DNA from: Flavobacterium fluviale
GTDB lineage: Bacteria; Bacteroidota; Bacteroidia; Flavobacteriales; Flavobacteriaceae
Direction of reading: 5' to 3'
DNA: 64,000 nt
NCBI RefSeq assembly: GCF_003312915.1
Contig: NZ_CP030261.1
Location: 744,001 to 808,000 of the forward strand
In this document: positions 10,842-22,383 of the stretch, piece by piece
How the letters are laid out: each line of letters begins with the position of its first letter
How positions within the stretch are numbered: the stretch's first letter is position 1
Program-made: the position numbers and the translations under genes
The notes under the pieces: model-generated
Told to the model about the DNA's origin: nothing
Database searches by the model: none
The model's input: the letters and a program-made list of their open reading frames with translations, nothing else

Positions 10842-13800
10842 TTAAAAGTTAACATTTAGACCCATCATGTAGGTTCTTGGCTGCGGATAATATCCAACAT
10901 CGATTCCTTTAGCCCAAGATTGATTTACGTTTCCGAAACCAATTTCCGGATCCATTCCTTTGTACTTTGTAAAAGTGTAAATGTTATTACCTGCAACGTA
11001 CAATCTGAACTTAGAGAAGAATTTTAACTTGTCTGTTAACTTTGTCAAATCACATCCAATTGTAGCATTTTTAATTCTGAAGAAATCTGAATCCTGAATA
11101 TACAAATCAGAGAATTTAGTGTAGTTACCATTATCATCTGTTCCGTATGTTACTCTTGGAACTGTGTTTGAAGTTCCTTCGCTTGTCCATCTGTTTAAAA
11201 CATCTGTAGTGTTGTTTGTGTAGGCACGAGTGTAATCGTGAATTCCGAAAACGTTTTGTCCTCCAGCAGTACCATAGGTATTAATAGATAAATCAAAAGC
11301 TTTGTATGATAATTCTAAATTAACACCGTAGTTAATATCTGGATTTGGATCTCCAATCTGCGTTTTATCATTTGCATCAATTTGTCCGTCACCATTCAAA
11401 TCTACGAAACGAACATCTCCAGGAACTGCATTTGGCTGAACTCCTGCTGCAACTTCTGCTGCATTTTGAAAAATTCCAGCTGTTTTTAATCCGTAGAAAT
11501 AACCCATTGGTTTACCAACCTCAACACGGTTCATTTCGTCTAGACCTTGGAATAAAACATTTGATTCTCCGTGAATGATTCCTTCGTTGTTTGCAATTCG
11601 TAATACTTCGTTTTGGTTGCGAGAAAGGTTTGCATTAATACCAAAATTCCAATCTTTTCCAATACGTGTGCGGTAAGCCAATCCAATTTCAAAACCTTTA
11701 TTACTAACGTCTCCACCATTAATGTAAGGTGCAGTTGCTCCAGCATAAGCTGGGATAGAAGCCAAAACTAACCAGTCTTTCGTTTTCTTGTCGTAGTAAT
11801 CGAAAGTTAAAGTAAAGTTGGTAAATAAAGTAGCATCAAAACCTAAGTCTAACTGCTCAGAAGTTTCCCATTTTAAATTACGGTTTGCTAATTGATCCGG
11901 GCTTGAACCTACTAATAAAGTTTCGTCACCTGTTCCAAAATGATACGTTTTATCTGTTGAGTTTACAACCGACATGTAAGCAAATCTTCTTGCAAATTGA
12001 TCGTTACCATTTTGTCCCCAGCTTGCTCTTAATTTGAAAGTATTTAATACTTTATTTTCTTTAAAGAAAGCTTCTTTGTCTAAATTCCAACCAGCAGAGA
12101 ACGATGGGAAAATAGCATATTTGTTGTCTGGACCAAATTCTGAAGATCCGTCACGACGAACTGTAGCTGAGAATAAATATTTATTATCATAATCGTACAA
12201 TAAACGTCCGAAGTAAGATTGAATAGCATAATCTCTACGATTTCCTTTTACCACATTTGATGTTGGGTCTTTTGCATTATCCAAATAAGCATGTGCGAAA
12301 TCATCAAAAATTAAGTTTCTTCCTTGTCCTTCCATATAATCAGAAGTATTCTTTTTAGCAGAAGTACCCGCTAACAAGTCAAAATTGTGAGAACCTGCAA
12401 TATTGAATTTATACTGAAGTGTATTTTCGAAAATCCATCCTAAAGATTTTGTAGAACTTTGCGTAACACTTGAAACTGTGTTATTATCGTTTGAAGAAAG
12501 AGAATATACAGGTCTGAAAGAACGGTAATTACTATCTGTCATATCAACACCATAACTCGTTCTAAAGGTAAAATCTTTTGCAAACTTTAATTCAGCAAAA
12601 ATGTTACCTACATAACGGTTTGTTTTGGTTTGGTTGAAGTTATTGTAGTATAAAGACCCAACAGGATTTGTTACATCATTCGAAATAATTGAACGTGCAA
12701 AATCTCCGTTTTCATCATAAGGAGCGTCGATTGGCGCAGCATTTAAAAACGCTCTAATTGCGTTGCTGTAAATACCATCATCTGCAACACCGCTTGATTT
12801 GATGTTTGATAAAGTGAAATTTTCACCAATTTTCAAGAAACCTTTAATTACTTCCGAAGTAGAGTTTACTGTAAAAGTAATACGATCGTATTGCGATTGA
12901 CTAGTCGATCCTCCAATCATACCATCTTGTCCGTAGTAAGATAAACCAGTTGCAATAGTTGATTTTTCATCACCTCCAGTAATCAAAAGAGAGTGATTTT
13001 GTTTTATTGCACCTTCATTAAATAAACTTTTCTGCCAATCTGTGTCTGGAAATCCAGCGATTTGCGCTTTTGTGTATAATGGAGCATATCCAGAATTTAC
13101 ACGAGCTTCGTTTATAATAGTTGTATATTCTTGCGTATTCATCAAATCTAGTTTTTTAGCAATCTGCTGAAAACCTGTATAAGAACTGAAAGACACATTC
13201 ATTTTACCATCTTTTCCTTTTTTTGTTGTAACCAAGATAACTCCGTTTGCCGCTCTTGCTCCGTAGATAGAAGCTGCAGAAGCATCTTTTAAAACGTCAA
13301 CCCTTTCAATAACAGAAGGATCTAAATATCCAATTCCGTTATCAACCACGACACCATCAACAACATAAAGCGGATCACTGTTTCCTGCTGTACCGGCACC
13401 ACGAATATTTACCACCATATTCGCACCAGGCTGACCAGAAGAAGAAGTTACAGAAACTCCCGAAGCCTGACCTTGTAAAGCATTTACAACATCAAGACTC
13501 GCAACCTGCTGAATGTCTTTTCCTGATACCAAAGAAGTTGCAGCTGTATTAACTTTCTTCTTTTGAGTACCGTATCCGATTACCACAATTTCTTTAAGTT
13601 CTGCAGTTTCTGGCTGCAAAACTGCATTGACTACTTTTTGAGCGCCAACAGTTATGTTTTGTGTTTTGAAACCCACAAAAGTGACCACTAAAACATCGCC
13701 TGTTTTGGCTTCCACTTTATATTTTCCATCAAAATCGGTAACAGTACTCGATTTTGTTCCCTGTACTTGTACAGTTGCTCCGGGAACTCCAAATCCGTCT

Positions 13801-13931: not shown

Positions 13932-14508
13932 AATAAGAATTGATTAAGTTTAAGTTATAGTTAGTAATTTTTACCCTAAGAGAAATCTGGAAAAACTTCC
14001 CAAGCAGGTCATGCCAAAAATGAGGGCCTGAATCTCATTCTCAACATTTAGTACTTGCAGACTATAAGCAGCTATTTTTAATATCAAAATCGATTAAAAA
14101 TCAATTTCTATAAAAACATTTGTGGTAAGTTTAAGTTAAGTCGTAGCTTTGCCTTTTTTACTTATAGTCAATTTGAATTTATCTTATGGTAAATTTGACT
14201 ACAAGTGTAAAACAAATTTTCTATATTAACAAAATATTAGGGTTAATTTTTTTCAATTCTAATAAATACCATTTCATTTTTATCAATGCTGTAAAAACAG
14301 AAATGAAATTGAAATAAAAATTAGAGAAAAACCAACGTTTTATAAAATTGACAATCAGTCGTTTAAGAATTAAAGTATTTTAATACATTTTTAAGCACAT
14401 TTTTAAATCACTGATTATCAAAATTTTGTTTCGTTAAAAAAAATATAAAGCTTTTAAGAAGGCTAATAATCATTTTATTTATTTAATTTGTCAAAATTTA
14501 TCTCGAAT
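13932..14508. promoter_or_regulatory. Divergent PUL/regulator spacer with candidate operator
   Basis: This 577-bp AT-rich gap separates susC from the first Nudix regulator and must hold both promoters; I found no clean TAnnTTTG box on the susC strand. A dyad with perfect arms TAGTCAA (14165-14171) and TTGACTA (14195-14201), and partial symmetry inside, is the best operator candidate. A 13-bp direct repeat TAAGTTTAAGTTA occurs at 13945-13957, just upstream of the susC start, and again at 14126-14138. Long A/T runs occupy 14222-14460. No additional gene is seen. Confidence 0.45.
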
Positions 14509-15225
14509 ATGGTTGAAAATGTAGATGACGGAACTGTTCCAAAAAACGAACAAAGTGCCATGAATGCGATCACGATTGACTGTGTCATTTTTGGTTTTGA
14601 CAAAGGCAGTCTCGAGGTGCTTTTGGTGCAGCACGGAGAAGGAATCAGTAAAGGAAAATGGGGTCTTCCTGGGGGATGGATTTATAAAAAAGAAAGCACA
14701 GATGATGCTGCTCATCGCTTATTAAATGAACTTACTGGGCTTGATAATATTTATCTGGAACAGCTTAAAGCATTTGGCGATCCTAATCGTTTTCCGCTCA
14801 GACGAGTAATTACAATTGGTTATTATGCTTTGGTCAAAAGAGAAGATTACAATATTAAAGCCGGTTTTACAGCTTCGGATGCAAAATGGTATAAAATAAA
14901 CAATATTCCAGATTTGATTTATGATCATAATGAGATTTTAGCGTATAGTTTGAAACACCTTCGCAGCAAAGTCCGACAGACACCAATCGGTTTTAATTTA
15001 TTACCTGAAAAATTTACTTTATTACAGTTGATGCAGTTGTATGAGGAAATTTTAGGAATTGAAATGGACAAACCTAATTTTAGAAGAAAAATTCTTCACA
15101 TGAAACTTTTGGCAGCTTTAGACGAAAAACAGCAGGACGTTTCCCACCGAGCAGCTCAATTATACAAATTTGATCCAGAAATTTACACGAAACTAACCGA
15201 GAAGGGTTTCAATTTTGAATTCTGA
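14509..15225 (+). CDS. Nudix-fold transcriptional regulator (NrtR/AraR-like), copy 1
   Basis: A protein of 238 residues from the ATG at 14509 (a TTG at 14488 would add seven). The N-terminal half is a Nudix domain, and the C-terminal half from about residue 150 is a winged-helix-like region (FTLLQLMQLYEEILG, NFRRKILHM). The Nudix box is degenerate: in GX5EX7REUXEEXGU the second and last catalytic Glu are Leu (RLLNELTGL), so hydrolysis is unlikely and ligand sensing likely. Bacteroidota regulators of this type sense sugars such as arabinose or xylose and control the matching gene clusters. Placed head-to-head with susC, it most likely regulates this PUL; the ligand is unknown. Confidence 0.85.
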   Translation: MVENVDDGTVPKNEQSAMNAITIDCVIFGFDKGSLEVLLVQHGEGISKGKWGLPGGWIYKKESTDDAAHRLLNELTGLDNIYLEQLKAFGDPNRFPLRRVITIGYYALVKREDYNIKAGFTASDAKWYKINNIPDLIYDHNEILAYSLKHLRSKVRQTPIGFNLLPEKFTLLQLMQLYEEILGIEMDKPNFRRKILHMKLLAALDEKQQDVSHRAAQLYKFDPEIYTKLTEKGFNFEF

Positions 15226-15278: not shown

Positions 15279-15980
15279 TTGACAGAAATAACTACTAATC
15301 ATCACAAACCAGCCGTAGACGGAATCACAATTGACTGTGTTTTCTTCGGATTTAATAAGGAGAGTCTCGAAGTTCTCTTGGTGCAGCATGCCCAAGGCGA
15401 AAGTAAAGGAAAATGGGGGCTTCTCGGTGGATGGCTGCAACTGGAGGAAAGTGCCGATGATGCAGCACAGCGCATTTTACAAGAACTTACTGGTCTTGAA
15501 AATATTTATCTGGAGCAGTTAAAAGCTTTTACAAATCCGAAACGTGTTCTGGAAAGACGTGTGGTTACCATTGGTTATTACACATTAGTCAATCGGGAAG
15601 ATTATAACATTAAAGCCAGTTTAAGGGTTATCGAAGCCAAATGGTATAAAATAAATGAAATTCCAGATTTGATTTTTGACCATAACGAAATTCTGGATTT
15701 CAGTTTATCGCAGCTGCGAAATCGCGTTCGTCAAGCGCCGATTGGTTTTAATTTACTGCCAGAAAAATTTACCTTATTACAGTTGATGCATTTGTATGAA
15801 GAAATTTTAGGAATCGAATTGGATAAATCGAATTTCAGACGAAAAATTCTTCACATGAAACTGCTGACAGAACTCAACGAAAAACAAAAAGACGTTTCGC
15901 ACAGAGCGGCTAAACTTTATAAATTTGATGCTGAAATGTACAAGAAATTAACAGAAAAAGGGTTCAATTTTGAATTTTAG
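15279..15980 (+). CDS. Nudix-fold transcriptional regulator, tandem copy 2
   Basis: A 233-residue paralog of the preceding gene, about 76% identical by my alignment of 218 positions, starting at a TTG because no ATG exists in frame upstream. The gap to copy 1 is 53 bp, so they are probably co-transcribed. The Nudix box is again degraded (RILQELTGL), and the usual GLPGG is GLLGG. The C-terminal winged-helix region is nearly unchanged between copies, while the sugar-side Nudix part differs more. This suggests a shared DNA site but different effectors, or simply a recent duplication. Which copy acts on the PUL cannot be told from sequence. Confidence 0.82.
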   Translation: MTEITTNHHKPAVDGITIDCVFFGFNKESLEVLLVQHAQGESKGKWGLLGGWLQLEESADDAAQRILQELTGLENIYLEQLKAFTNPKRVLERRVVTIGYYTLVNREDYNIKASLRVIEAKWYKINEIPDLIFDHNEILDFSLSQLRNRVRQAPIGFNLLPEKFTLLQLMHLYEEILGIELDKSNFRRKILHMKLLTELNEKQKDVSHRAAKLYKFDAEMYKKLTEKGFNFEF

Positions 15981-18824: not shown

Positions 18825-18849
18825 TTCTTTCCTGCTATTTACTTATAAA

Positions 18850-18877
18850 AAAGCTGTCTTCAATGACAGCTTTTTTT
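18850..18877 (+). terminator. Terminator after the beta-barrel gene (probably bidirectional)
   Basis: Stem AAAGCTGTC/GACAGCTTT with loop TTCAAT and a following T7 run. It lies between converging genes, with A residues on the left giving a T run for leftward transcripts from the Lgt-like operon. Confidence 0.85.
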
Positions 18878-18903: not shown

Positions 18904-19101
18904 TTATGATAAAAGTGTTCCGCATATTCCTAATCCAATAATCAGATATAGTGCTCCTATAATAAAACAAACCTTTGCTCCATTGGGGCTACTTTTCTTA
19001 ATTGCAAAACCAGTGATAGCCATTAAAATTGGCGGACCAACCATAATCGCTACAAAAAATGCGACCAAACCATCTAAATTACCTACTTCTAGCGCTGTCA
19101 T
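18904..19101 (-). CDS. 65-residue two-helix membrane protein in the Lgt-like/radical SAM operon
   Basis: A small leftward gene beginning four bases after the radical SAM stop. After a short N-terminus (MTALEVGNLDGL) come two hydrophobic segments, about residues 13-34 (LVAFFVAIMVGPPILMAITG) and 43-63 (VCFIIGALYLIIGLGICGTL), joined by a basic loop AIKKSSPNGAK. I recognise no family. Tight spacing behind the radical SAM gene and typical codon use argue it is translated. It could be a subunit, an anchor or even a substrate of the upstream enzymes. A rightward frame over the same bases is rejected. Confidence 0.65.
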   Translation of the reverse strand: MTALEVGNLDGLVAFFVAIMVGPPILMAITGFAIKKSSPNGAKVCFIIGALYLIIGLGICGTLLS

Positions 19102-19105
19102 ATTC

Positions 19106-20497
19106 TTATATGTTAGTTCTTAATTCTTCTAATCTTTTTACTTTATCATCTCTGTAAAACAAATTCATGGTTTCAAAAGGAATTATTTTATTATCCTTAT
19201 TGACAATATGTACGCATGATTTTTTTATTGCCCTTACATCAAAATTATAGGCATCAATAAACTGCATTATAATAATTCTAAACAGATTATCGTAACCTAA
19301 TTCAGGCGCATCAATATTAGGGAGACAGCATAATATCGATTTCAAGTTTTCTTGCGCTACTTCTACAGAATTTCCTGTGCTAAACAAATCTATCATTTTA
19401 CCTCTAAGCACTTCATCCTGCTCGTAAATAATCGTGTTTTTACTATTATCCAATAAATCATTTGGATTAATATATCGCGTTAACGGAAAAACTTCGTCTC
19501 CTAACTTCAACGCATAACCCATTACTAAAGCGTCAGGATTACAAGGAACAGGAAGTAAATCATCTGAATTGAAAACGGTAGTTTGCTCCAGAATTTTTCT
19601 TCTTACTTCTGTTAAAGTCATGCGATCGGTTTCTAAGTTAAAGTTCTCCAATCTACCCGCTATTTGAGTCGGCTGAAATGTAACACCTCGAACGCATTTT
19701 TGCTTTAGTGCAAACTCAACAATTTTACCTATTTCATGATCGTTTAATCCTTTTTGAAGCGTAACAACCAAAGTGGTTGACAAATTAACTTCATTTAGAT
19801 TTTCTAAAGCCTGTTTTCGTATTTCGCTTAAATCGGCTCCACGCAATTCCTGCAATACACTATCTTCAAAAGAATCAAACTGAAGATAGATTTCAAAATC
19901 TGGAGAATAGGTTTTTAGCCTCTGAACGAATTCTTTGTCTTTTGCAATTTTAATTCCGTTTGTGTTTAGCATTAAATGTTTTATCGGAATTGATTTTGCA
20001 TAATCCAAAATTTCAAAAAACTCAGGATGTATGGTTGGTTCTCCTCCGCTAATCTGAACTACATCAGGTTCTTTTTCGTTTTTAACAACCGTATCGAGCA
20101 TTGCTTTTATTTCTTCAAGAGTTCTGTGTCTACCATAATTAGGCGATGAACCAGCGTAACAAGTTGGACATGTCAGATTACATCGATCTGTAACCTCAAC
20201 AACTGTAAGGCAAGAATGCTGTTCATGATCTGGACATAAACCGCAATCGTACGGACAGCCATAGTGCGTTTTTGTATTAAAAGTATACGGCATCTCAGAT
20301 GGTTTATTGTAGTTTCGGATATTCTTGTAATACTCAATATCGTCAGCAATCAAAACCTTCGAACTTCCGTGTTCCGGACATCTTTTAAGCATGTAGACAT
20401 TCTCGTCTTCAAAAACAATTTTAGCATCAATTCTCTTTAAGCATTCTGGACAAAGGCTTAATGTAAAGTCATAATAAGTATATTTTCTAACTGGCAT
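19106..20497 (-). CDS. Multi-cluster radical SAM protein resembling tetraether lipid synthase (Tes/MJ0619 type)
   Basis: A 463-residue protein. The radical SAM core has CNLTCPTC (C106, C110, C113) and GGEP (151-154). Before it come a rubredoxin-like pair CPEC (C16, C19) with C40 in CPEH, then YGCPYDCGLCPDH with C81, C85, C88 and C96. After the barrel are C319, C390, C391 and C428, enough for another Fe-S cluster. This order (N-terminal zinc/rubredoxin-like site, extra cluster, SAM cluster, C-terminal cluster) is what I recall for archaeal MJ0619/Tes, which couples lipid tails or methylates a pterin. The start overlaps the Lgt-like gene by 11 bp, implying translational coupling. Its substrate here is unknown. 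Confidence 0.78.
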   Translation of the reverse strand: MPVRKYTYYDFTLSLCPECLKRIDAKIVFEDENVYMLKRCPEHGSSKVLIADDIEYYKNIRNYNKPSEMPYTFNTKTHYGCPYDCGLCPDHEQHSCLTVVEVTDRCNLTCPTCYAGSSPNYGRHRTLEEIKAMLDTVVKNEKEPDVVQISGGEPTIHPEFFEILDYAKSIPIKHLMLNTNGIKIAKDKEFVQRLKTYSPDFEIYLQFDSFEDSVLQELRGADLSEIRKQALENLNEVNLSTTLVVTLQKGLNDHEIGKIVEFALKQKCVRGVTFQPTQIAGRLENFNLETDRMTLTEVRRKILEQTTVFNSDDLLPVPCNPDALVMGYALKLGDEVFPLTRYINPNDLLDNSKNTIIYEQDEVLRGKMIDLFSTGNSVEVAQENLKSILCCLPNIDAPELGYDNLFRIIIMQFIDAYNFDVRAIKKSCVHIVNKDNKIIPFETMNLFYRDDKVKRLEELRTNI

Positions 20498-21230
20498 TTT
20501 TTACAAATAAATTTAAAATTGTTTTGTTATAATAGAGCAGACAAATCAAACATAAAATCTGAATCGAACTTATTCCAAAAATCAAGAAATAATTGGGTTT
20601 CAGAAATTCTACAAAAAAGCGAAATGCAAAATAGGCAATCATAAAATACTGAAATATAAGTCCGTTTTTTATATTTCTGTTTTTTAATTTTTTCAGAACA
20701 AAAAATAAAATGATCAAAAAAATTAATTCGTATAATGCAATTGGATGCCTTATAATATTGTCGCCAAGATTCATACCTGTAAAAAAGGTCGTTTCTTTTC
20801 CATATGTAAACTCATTGGTTCCAGATAAAAAACAACCAATTCTTCCTATAAAAATTCCCAAAATAATCGGAAAGGTAAATAAATCTCCTGATGATTCTTT
20901 TTCTCCTATAACCTTCTTAGCAATTTCAACGCCCAAAAGTCCGCCAAACAATCCTCCCATAATGGTCTTCGCATTGAAGAGTTCTAAAATTGATCTTGCA
21001 TCAAGATGAAAAACAGGATTTTCTAAAAAACCCATAATTCTAGAACCCAAAAAAGCTCCAATTGCAGCTCCTAATATGATTGATAATCTATTGGAAGAAA
21101 CAATACTATCGTTCGTTCTTTTTCTCAAAAAAACATAATATCGATATCCTAAAAAAAATGCCAGATATTCTAAAACTAAATGGATATTGATTTCATAACC
21201 AAAAATAACTGGCTCAAAAGGAAGTTTCAT
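20487..21230 (-). CDS. Diverged prolipoprotein diacylglyceryl transferase (Lgt) paralog
   Basis: A 247-residue, roughly seven-helix membrane protein with Lgt hallmarks: GGLFGGLLG (92-100), GRIGCFLSG (129-137), HPIALYE (162-168) and RFFVEFLKP (204-212). Canonical Lgt transfers diacylglycerol from phosphatidylglycerol to lipoprotein Cys. Two conserved residues are changed: the His of the FHGG motif is Phe (position 95), and the Asn of GRxGNF is Cys133. The Arg of GRIG (R130) and R204 remain. Ordinary lipoprotein lipidation is therefore unlikely to be its job; a related lipid transfer or lipid binding is more plausible. It is first in an operon with the radical SAM gene. Confidence 0.8.
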   Translation of the reverse strand: MKLPFEPVIFGYEINIHLVLEYLAFFLGYRYYVFLRKRTNDSIVSSNRLSIILGAAIGAFLGSRIMGFLENPVFHLDARSILELFNAKTIMGGLFGGLLGVEIAKKVIGEKESSGDLFTFPIILGIFIGRIGCFLSGTNEFTYGKETTFFTGMNLGDNIIRHPIALYELIFLIILFFVLKKLKNRNIKNGLIFQYFMIAYFAFRFFVEFLKPNYFLIFGISSIQILCLICLLYYNKTILNLFVKNAS

Positions 21231-21304: not shown

Positions 21305-21337
21305 AAAAGCTGTTCTAGTTTAGAACAGCTTTTTTTA
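21305..21337. terminator. Orphan terminator-like hairpin between divergent genes
   Basis: Perfect 13-bp stem AAAAGCTGTTCTA/TAGAACAGCTTTT with a 3-base loop and a T run on the right. It lies between the divergent starts of the Lgt-like gene and the WYL regulator, where no annotated transcript should end. A 12-codon rightward frame (from the ATG at 21268, sequence MQKMFKLIRLIK) stops right at the stem, so this may be the tail of a lost gene or of a small transcript. Confidence 0.6.
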
Positions 21338-21423: not shown

Positions 21424-22383
21424 ATGCTCGACGAAACTCCCAAACGATTTGACCGAATTGTTGCGATTCTTATTCAATTACAATCTAAAAAGATTGTAAA
21501 AGCACAAGAATTGGCAGATCGTTTCGAGTGCAGTTTACGAACTATTTACAGGGATATTAGAACGCTCGAAGCTTCTGGCGTTCCTATTTACAGCGAAGCA
21601 GGAGTTGGTTATGCTTTAATGGAAGGCTACAGACTTCCGCCCGTAATGTTTACACGAGAGGAAATAAGCAGTTTTATTGCTGCCGAAAAGCTGATGCAAA
21701 AATTTACTGATCCTTCTTTGGGGACGCATCACGCATCGGCGATGTACAAACTGAAATCGGTTTTAAGAAGTGCAGACAAAGACTGGCTTTCTAACATTGA
21801 GTCAAGGGTAGTTATGCAGACTGCAGAGCCAATGTTTAATGACAATTCTCCGAATACACTGGCTGTTCTTTTTGAAGGAATTGCAGAGAAAAAGCAAATT
21901 CTTTTAACCTATAAAACTTTTGATAAAGACGAAACTACACAAAGAAATCTCGAACCAGTTGGGGTTTTTCACGATAATAACAATTGGTATTTTCTAGGTT
22001 ATTGCCATTTGCGAAAAGATTACCGCCAGTTTAGAACCGATCGCATTCAGGAAATCAAAAAAACCGAATTTGATTTTACTATAGAACACGATGCATTGGA
22101 AACTTATCTCAATAAAACCGAAACTTGTGCTACGACAACAGTAAGAATCTTAGTCGAAAAAAAAATCGCAAGATATTTGAACTATGAAAGAAAATATCAT
22201 GGCTTTGTCTCCGAAAAAGAAATAGGTGACAAAATCGAAATGCATTTTATGTGCCGTGATATTGAAAGTGGTTTTCCAAGGTGGTATCTTATGTTTGGAG
22301 ATTATGCAGAAATCTTGGAACCTGAAATATTAAAGACTAAAGTTTTAGAACTACTTGAAATCAATAAAAAAAGACTTATATAA
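21424..22383 (+). CDS. YafY-type HTH/WYL domain transcriptional regulator
   Basis: A 319-residue protein. Residues 1-65 hold a DeoR-type winged helix (RFDRIVAILIQLQSKK, RTIYRDIRTLEASGVPIYSE, GVGYALMEGYRLPP). A linker precedes a WYL domain at about 145-215 (ILLTYKTFDKDE, LEPVGVFHDNNNWYFLGYC, RQFRTDRI), then the WYL C-terminal extension. WYL domains bind nucleotides or nucleic acid and control stress or defence genes. It converges on a DinB-like gene across a shared terminator, a pairing I associate with YafY-type regulators in this group, and it is also divergent from the Lgt-like operon. Either may be its target. Confidence 0.9.
   Translation: MLDETPKRFDRIVAILIQLQSKKIVKAQELADRFECSLRTIYRDIRTLEASGVPIYSEAGVGYALMEGYRLPPVMFTREEISSFIAAEKLMQKFTDPSLGTHHASAMYKLKSVLRSADKDWLSNIESRVVMQTAEPMFNDNSPNTLAVLFEGIAEKKQILLTYKTFDKDETTQRNLEPVGVFHDNNNWYFLGYCHLRKDYRQFRTDRIQEIKKTEFDFTIEHDALETYLNKTETCATTTVRILVEKKIARYLNYERKYHGFVSEKEIGDKIEMHFMCRDIESGFPRWYLMFGDYAEILEPEILKTKVLELLEINKKRLI

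Follow-up and report, generated by a model that had tools for sequence, protein, structure and literature searches.

A candidate lipidation module of an Lgt paralog, a Tes-like radical SAM enzyme and a two-helix membrane peptide in Flavobacterium fluviale

The reverse strand of a 64,000-nucleotide stretch of the Flavobacterium fluviale genome (contig NZ_CP030261.1, positions 744,001 to 808,000; the whole stretch is called the window) encodes an Lgt paralog, a radical S-adenosylmethionine (SAM) enzyme and a small membrane peptide in one operon, which raises the question of what the three proteins do together. Our best explanation, a tentative one that falls short of even confidence, is a dedicated lipidation system for membrane peptides, completed by radical chemistry. 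In the first step, the Lgt paralog would transfer a diacylglyceryl group, probably from phosphatidylglycerol, to a Cys at the outer end of the second helix of the peptide, and the radical SAM enzyme would then alter the attached lipid chains by radical chemistry. The main features are as follows.

20487..21230, reverse strand: Lgt paralog, 247 amino acids, first gene of the operon (Pfam LGT; match of the AlphaFold2 (AF2) model to 5AZB).
19106..20497, reverse strand: radical SAM enzyme of the TrsS/Tes clan, 463 amino acids (Pfam, NCBIfam, structure match, tree).
18904..19101, reverse strand: two-helix membrane peptide, 65 amino acids (open reading frame (ORF); 31 homologs of 64-67 amino acids; in-operon relatives).
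18922..18924, reverse strand: Cys60 in LGICG, predicted lipid attachment site (present in at least 97% of the 111 peptide ORFs from 80 named loci).

The genes of the Lgt paralog and the radical SAM enzyme overlap by 11 bp (20487-20497), and a gap of 4 bp (19102-19105) separates the radical SAM gene from that of the peptide. The ORF coordinates bear out the preliminary description of the locus, made from the sequence alone, which had listed three leftward genes with this overlap and gap and a membrane protein of 65 residues as the third product.

The operon was compared with related loci, 121 in total: the 80 named loci, which are the best 80 of 567 confirmed and thus the closest relatives, further Bacteroidota stretches, and four plasmid records (L133, L134, L136, L137). 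Two of the 121 are outsiders (L129, with a Tes above the NCBIfam cut-off, and L155). The family set consists of the other 119, window included, and comprises 115 Bacteroidota-type rows and 4 actino-type rows (L133, L136, L137 and the Bacteroidota locus L128). The loci are not independent, and near copies are present, for example L149 and the window. An Lgt-like ORF, the radical SAM enzyme and small two-helix peptides occur together in 80/80 named loci, a recurrence that chance would not produce, with split or partial Lgt ORFs in L038, L046, L075 and L081. The family set bears out the expectation of the preliminary description that the three genes are neighbours in related genomes. A same-strand Lgt-like ORF lies within 7 kb of the radical SAM gene in 117/119 loci, and in the remaining two, L116 (genome G034) and L124 (G268), the Lgt paralog is encoded elsewhere in the genome, unlinked to the radical SAM gene. 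In 116/119 loci the operon contains a two-helix ORF whose last 22 residues include a Cys (113 by script, and L128, L137 and L167 by hand). No such peptide was found inside the operon by script and hand inspection in L116, L156 (contig end) and L164. By a stricter motif count, 105/119 family loci have a motif peptide.

The commonest gene order is lgt-rsam-peptide. The order lgt-peptide-rsam is found in L118, L120-L122, L153, L128 and Mycobacterium, a peptide-first order in Nonomuraea, and the order rsam, DUF4395 gene, lgt, peptide in L126 and L127. The same trio is present in records of Mycobacterium and Nonomuraea, in which the radical SAM enzymes are about 80% identical to each other. The mycobacterial plasmids L133 and L136 carry the system with two Cys-peptides each. 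In L073, about 5 kb separate the radical SAM gene from a peptide pair (12173-12574) downstream of it.

Co-occurrence of the two enzymes was also determined in 395 Bacteroidota genomes, the same ones being searched with the radical SAM query L126 (E-value up to 1e-40) and with the Lgt paralog alignment A2 (E-value up to 1e-20). The radical SAM enzyme is present in 33 genomes, the Lgt paralog in 31, and both in 30. A radical SAM enzyme without a listed Lgt paralog was found in G066 (a true Tes), G306 and G096, and in G096 a divergent Lgt (L128) adjoins the radical SAM gene although the Lgt search did not list it.

The 65-residue peptide has no Pfam family. Among 66 non-redundant peptide ORFs, about seven of which look spurious and are still counted, the consensus near the C-terminus is [GS]-[LF]-G-[VIT]-C, with Gly or Ser at position -4 in 54/66 and at position -2 in 54/66. 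The Cys is followed by 3-17 residues (median 6). In peptide tails from Actinomycetota, such as LSAGICTGINP, the Cys is preceded by I, V, L or Y. The motif [GS]x[GS]xC occurs within the last 25 residues of 139/172 two-helix ORFs inside the operons, compared with 8/135 in the flanks. This control replaced a weaker first one, which accepted any Cys in the last 22 residues and gave 161/173 inside the operons and 59/141 outside.

Lys or Arg precedes the last helix in 66/66 peptides, and no Lys or Arg follows the Cys in 49/66. Under the positive-inside rule, which is well established, this charge distribution predicts that the loop faces the inside of the membrane and the Cys the outside. The distance from the last Lys or Arg to the Cys has a median of 17 residues (n=48); in lipoprotein-like signal peptides of the same loci the median is 14 (n=51), in which the selecting pattern itself bounds the spacing. 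With a K/R-rich loop before the last helix and a Cys motif where that helix is predicted to reach the outside, the peptide resembles an embedded lipoprotein signal peptide. An ordinary lipoprotein was considered and ruled out: 65/66 peptides are without a canonical lipobox, and two canonical Lgt proteins are encoded elsewhere in the genome. A related case is DybA, a lipoprotein of the ribosomally synthesized and post-translationally modified peptide (RiPP) type, which according to PMC12636315 is likewise a small modified peptide lipidated on a Cys (for the operon peptide, lipidation is predicted). However, the route proposed there for DybA is the general Lgt/LspA one, with an MNIO enzyme and, at the N-terminus, a canonical lipobox, whereas in the operon the Lgt paralog is a dedicated one, the helix with the Cys is C-terminal and the enzyme is a radical SAM protein.

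The Lgt paralog scores 85.7 bits on the Pfam LGT profile (cut-off 24.9), and its AF2 model (predicted local distance difference test (pLDDT) 76.0, predicted template modelling score (pTM) 0.74) has 5AZB as its sole PDB match at E <0.001, with template modelling (TM) scores of 0.64/0.57. This supports the Lgt fold given in the preliminary description. The protein scores 55.1 bits on TIGR00544, the Lgt equivalog, below the cut-off of 118.9, and is the lowest-scoring of three LGT-family genes in the 4.84-Mb single-contig genome (85.1 bits compared with 224.4 and 199.4). The two canonical copies are located at G000:C1:847230-847997 and 2409355-2410212. In an alignment with E. coli Lgt and these two copies, the equivalents of R143, E202, Y235, R239 and E243 are retained. 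The roles of these residues are described in PMC4728403, which places R143 and R239 in the lining of the catalytic pocket. The phosphatidylglycerol-site residues of the window protein, R130, Y200, R204 and E168, are invariant in 40/40 rows of alignment A2. The paralog thus shares with Lgt (5AZB, TIGR00544) the fold and these five positions, and differs from it in the loss of the HGGL His, a Cys in the place of Asn146, the score below the equivalog cut-off, and the presence of two canonical copies besides it.

The radical SAM enzyme contains the following motifs.

20369..20452, reverse strand: rubredoxin-type metal site C16-X2-C19-X20-C40-X2-H43, with the spacing of Tes (Pfam, alignment).
20234..20257, reverse strand: N-terminal auxiliary cluster motif C81-X3-C85-X2-C88 (115/115 Bacteroidota-type rows; absent in the 4 actino-type rows).
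20210..20218, reverse strand: H94-x-C96 (115/115 Bacteroidota-type and 4/4 actino-type rows; alignment).
20159..20182, reverse strand: radical SAM cluster motif C106-X3-C110-X2-C113 (sequence, alignment).
19541..19543, reverse strand: C319 in P-x-P-C (family and four TrsS-like rows; not in L129 or L155).

All the Cys sets of the preliminary description are present and largely conserved. The residues C40, C81, C85, C88, C96, C106, C110, C113 and C319 are retained in 115/115 Bacteroidota-type loci, C16, C19 and C428 in 114/115, and C390 and C391 in 112/115. H94, C96 and C319 are retained in 119/119 family loci and in four TrsS-like rows. The actino-type rows (L133, L136, L137, L128) have neither the N-terminal cluster Cys residues nor C390/C391. 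The C-terminal Cys residues read SC...PFE plus C390/C391 in the window and CC...PFC in L129. M411, which corresponds to Met439 of Tes, is kept in 112/115 Bacteroidota-type loci.

The Pfam domains of the enzyme are Radical_SAM (98.5 bits, cut-off 29.5) and Zn_ribbon_HMPTM (73.7 bits, cut-off 27); Pfam detects no SPASM domain. The likeness to Tes noted in the preliminary description holds in part. The nearest solved relative is GDGT-MAS/Tes (7TOL, 254 bits), and the AF2 model (pLDDT 69.5, pTM 0.79; 112/463 residues below 50, including 66-92 and 368-401) matches 7TOL with TM scores of 0.77/0.72, whereas the next match after 7TOM, MoaA, reaches 0.40/0.55. The rubredoxin-site spacing, the N-terminal CX3CX2C and the radical SAM CX3CX2C are those of Tes/GDGT-MAS (7TOL, 7TOM; spacings in PMC9433317). 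However, the best NCBIfam score, 341.2 bits, is obtained on NF045646, the profile of the radical SAM (seleno)protein TrsS, where it is below the cut-off of 490, and the score on the Tes profile is below its cut-off as well. Of the four TrsS-like rows (L132, L135, L170 and L171), the two that were scanned, L132 and L135, are also below the TrsS cut-off. HxC and PxPC are shared with the four TrsS-like rows. Membership of Tes was ruled out by the cut-off and by residues, and, judged by signature and score, the enzyme is a Tes-type scaffold nearer to TrsS. In the tree, a 97/85 branch splits 55 family rows from 6 Tes- and TrsS-like rows; five of the 55, the P rows, have a gene context that is not known, and two, L116 and L124, have no linked Lgt. 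The tree is unrooted and has long branches. No stated function was found for TrsS in the literature searched.

Phosphatidylglycerol is the likely donor because its site residues are retained in the Lgt paralog, and the peptide Cys is the likely acceptor because it is placed in the membrane like a lipobox Cys. Cleavage by signal peptidase II would not occur, because a canonical lipobox is found in 1/66 peptides. The lipid may be the substrate of the radical SAM enzyme because of the Tes fold and because this enzyme varies far less than the Lgt paralog and the peptides; over the 80 named loci, the median identity to the window is 88.4% for the radical SAM enzyme and 68.2% for the Lgt paralog. 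Conservation of the enzyme next to variation in the peptides speaks for a substrate that does not vary, such as the acyl chain. Of the two predicted steps, lipidation is better founded than radical chemistry. Mss is another radical SAM enzyme. Its proposed role in bacteria is the condensation of iso-C15 diacylglycerols (PMC13274423), which would give radical lipid chemistry a bacterial counterpart.

Several observations weigh against this lipidation reading. The first concern two active-site positions of the Lgt paralog.

20958..20960, reverse strand: Met91 of MGGLFGG, in the place of the catalytic His103 (HGGL) of E. coli Lgt (motif reading by eye).
20832..20834, reverse strand: Cys133 at the place of Asn146 (GRxGC for xRLGN; alignment).

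The HGG of the catalytic His103 motif HGGL is found in 0/111 paralogs of at least 200 amino acids. The exact counterpart of His103 is ambiguous: the MAFFT alignment gives a gap, phmmer places Phe95 there, and Met91 is assigned by eye. Asn146 is replaced by Cys in 111/111 paralogs, 110 of which have the GRxGC pattern (the exception, L036, has GRIAC); the canonical copies L001 and L002 read RLGN. The E. coli Lgt variants H103A/N/Q/R/Y all fail complementation (PMC4728403), and the Asn146Ala variant is inactive (PMC8689077). As both residues are replaced, Lgt-type transfer may not occur. It is possible that Cys133, in the active site, takes over the role of His103 as a thiol relay.

Further points against the reading come from the other two proteins and from the genomes. 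The near-absence of the canonical lipobox pattern from the peptides is one. The radical SAM enzyme is assumed to be cytosolic, while the peptide Cys is predicted to face outward. On the Tes profile NF045702 the enzyme scores 304.9 bits, below the curated cut-off of 450, and five related loci score 148.9-305.7 bits. HxC and C319 are absent from both Tes-side rows (L129, L155). The position of Tes Tyr459 is occupied by Ile in 113/115 Bacteroidota-type and by Val in 4/4 actino-type rows (Ile or Val in 118/119 family loci, one row being gapped), and the position of Met439 is Lys in 4/4 actino-type rows. According to PMC9433317, Tyr459 and Met439 are conserved in 1,000 archaeal Tes homologs, and the Y459F/L and M439A variants are active. 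In the loci inspected, TrsS-like relatives adjoin methyltransferases, not an Lgt or a Cys-peptide. Genome G017 holds the Lgt paralog without the radical SAM enzyme, and G034 holds both unlinked, with no Cys-peptide found near either.

A radical SAM gene with small peptide genes next to it, frequently in tandem (36/119 loci have two or three motif peptides), is a usual layout for RiPPs. The substrate of the enzyme might therefore be the peptide, in which it would form, for instance, a thioether or a backbone cross-link close to or at the Cys, with the Lgt paralog as presenter or anchor. HxC and C319, which set the enzyme apart from the Tes side, are consistent with such maturation. However, no leader-core layout is visible in the peptides, which are membrane proteins of two or three helices, their widely conserved part is the last helix with the Cys, predicted to end opposite a cytosolic radical SAM enzyme, and the SPASM domain is missing from the Pfam result. 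We consider RiPP-like maturation doubtful, about a one-in-four prospect.

The lack of HGG and the Cys at the place of Asn146 in 111/111 paralogs also fit a membrane complex in which thiols, electrons or metal pass by way of Cys133 and the peptide Cys to a reaction of the radical SAM enzyme on a lipid or small molecule, and the peptide stays unlipidated. Genes for CcdA, a disulfide oxidoreductase or a peroxiredoxin/redoxin are located near TrsS-like loci, and in the distant Bacteroidota loci L126 and L127 a gene of the cluster, between the radical SAM and Lgt genes, encodes a DUF4395 protein with a Cys-rich end (profile). A thiol relay would not need the retained phosphatidylglycerol-site residues, however, and the constant spacing between the K/R loop and the Cys is what a lipidation site would show. 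We consider the relay complex unlikely. L127 additionally contains a gene for an ICMT/PEMT-type methyltransferase (profile), and the L148 cluster resembles those of L126 and L127 by appearance.

That the enzyme is a bacterial Tes coupling free membrane lipids, with the Lgt paralog and the peptide as helpers, in line with the lipid reading of the preliminary description, is improbable: the fold and cofactor spacing are those of Tes, and bacterial Tes homologs are proposed to make membrane-spanning lipids (PMC8941075), but the Tes score is below its cut-off, Tyr459 is missing, HxC and C319 are present, and a Bacteroidota genome with a true Tes (L129, genome G066; 493.8 bits, above the NCBIfam cut-off) has neither the Lgt paralog nor a Cys-peptide beside it. 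The preliminary description is thus supported in part, on the Lgt fold and the Tes likeness, and overlooked the conserved peptide Cys and the missing Lgt histidine; its suggestion of radical chemistry on a lipid or a lipidated product may still hold. A bolder form of the lipidation reading, which we regard as a long shot, is that, once the His-less Lgt has lipidated the outward Cys, the acyl tails are joined by the radical SAM enzyme either to a lipid in the opposite leaflet or to the one carried by a partner peptide, producing a membrane-spanning, protein-anchored lipid. To our knowledge, no organism has a lipid of this kind.

The family is patchily distributed, with matches below 1e-40 in 25/296 genomes (G066 included) in one draw and 18/295 in another. 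In a search of Actinomycetota, proteins of Mycobacterium, Mycolicibacterium, Nocardia, Nonomuraea and Microbispora are among the best 120 of 2,875 matches; the gene context was inspected for L133, L136 and L137 only. Near the operon, lepA is found in 51/120 loci and a dus gene in 54/120, which points to vertical descent within Flavobacteriaceae. The loci L117 and L154 of the genus of the window cluster with L119 of another family in the radical SAM tree (100/100), which points to transfer. In other Flavobacteriaceae genera with lepA in the flank, the radical SAM enzyme is 87-90% and LepA 84-88% identical to the window, except in L130 and L131, in which the radical SAM enzyme is below LepA (81% compared with 86-87%). 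It is below LepA also within Flavobacterium, for example in L080 (87% compared with 93%). The radical SAM enzyme is as slow as LepA only between genera.

The three-gene module was not found in literature searches on Lgt and radical SAM proteins, Lgt paralogs, COG1964, TrsS, lipobox and RiPP peptides, and tetraether and membrane-spanning lipids, and the claim is limited to those searches. Bacterial Tes homologs were counted with loose limits in PMC8941075, which also searched the group that contains Bacteroidetes, and the radical SAM enzyme alone may already figure among them; PMC11868695 names other phyla for such homologs. If the lipidation reading is true, bacteria have a second lipidation route, dedicated to tiny membrane peptides and acting on their C-terminal helix, that dispenses with the essential histidine of Lgt, and the accepted catalytic model of Lgt would be challenged. 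A bacterial branch of the TrsS/Tes radical SAM clan would gain a substrate, and a lipid-peptide product would be added to Flavobacteriaceae, other Bacteroidota and some Actinomycetota.

The operon is flanked by two inverted repeats, of which the first follows the peptide gene.

18847..18876, no strand assigned: terminator-like 12-bp perfect inverted repeat with A and T tracts.

The second, a 13-bp perfect inverted repeat with A and T tracts at 21305-21333, is positioned between the operon and a divergent gene of a WYL regulator, and is terminator-like or an operator. The WYL regulator (21424-22383) was ruled out as a member of the system, as a homolog is present in the flanks of only 15/120 loci. 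A defence system was also ruled out: the only PADLOC matches are to viperin models and cover the radical SAM core (47.9 bits). The Bacteroidota promoter pattern has no match upstream of the operon, and its 9 matches in the whole window compare with 7.2 expected by chance; one of them is inside the Lgt paralog gene (20547-20579), about 50 bases before the start of the radical SAM gene. Farther from the operon, two tandem genes at 14488-15225 and 15279-15980 encode similar products, which resemble NUDIX-type regulators.

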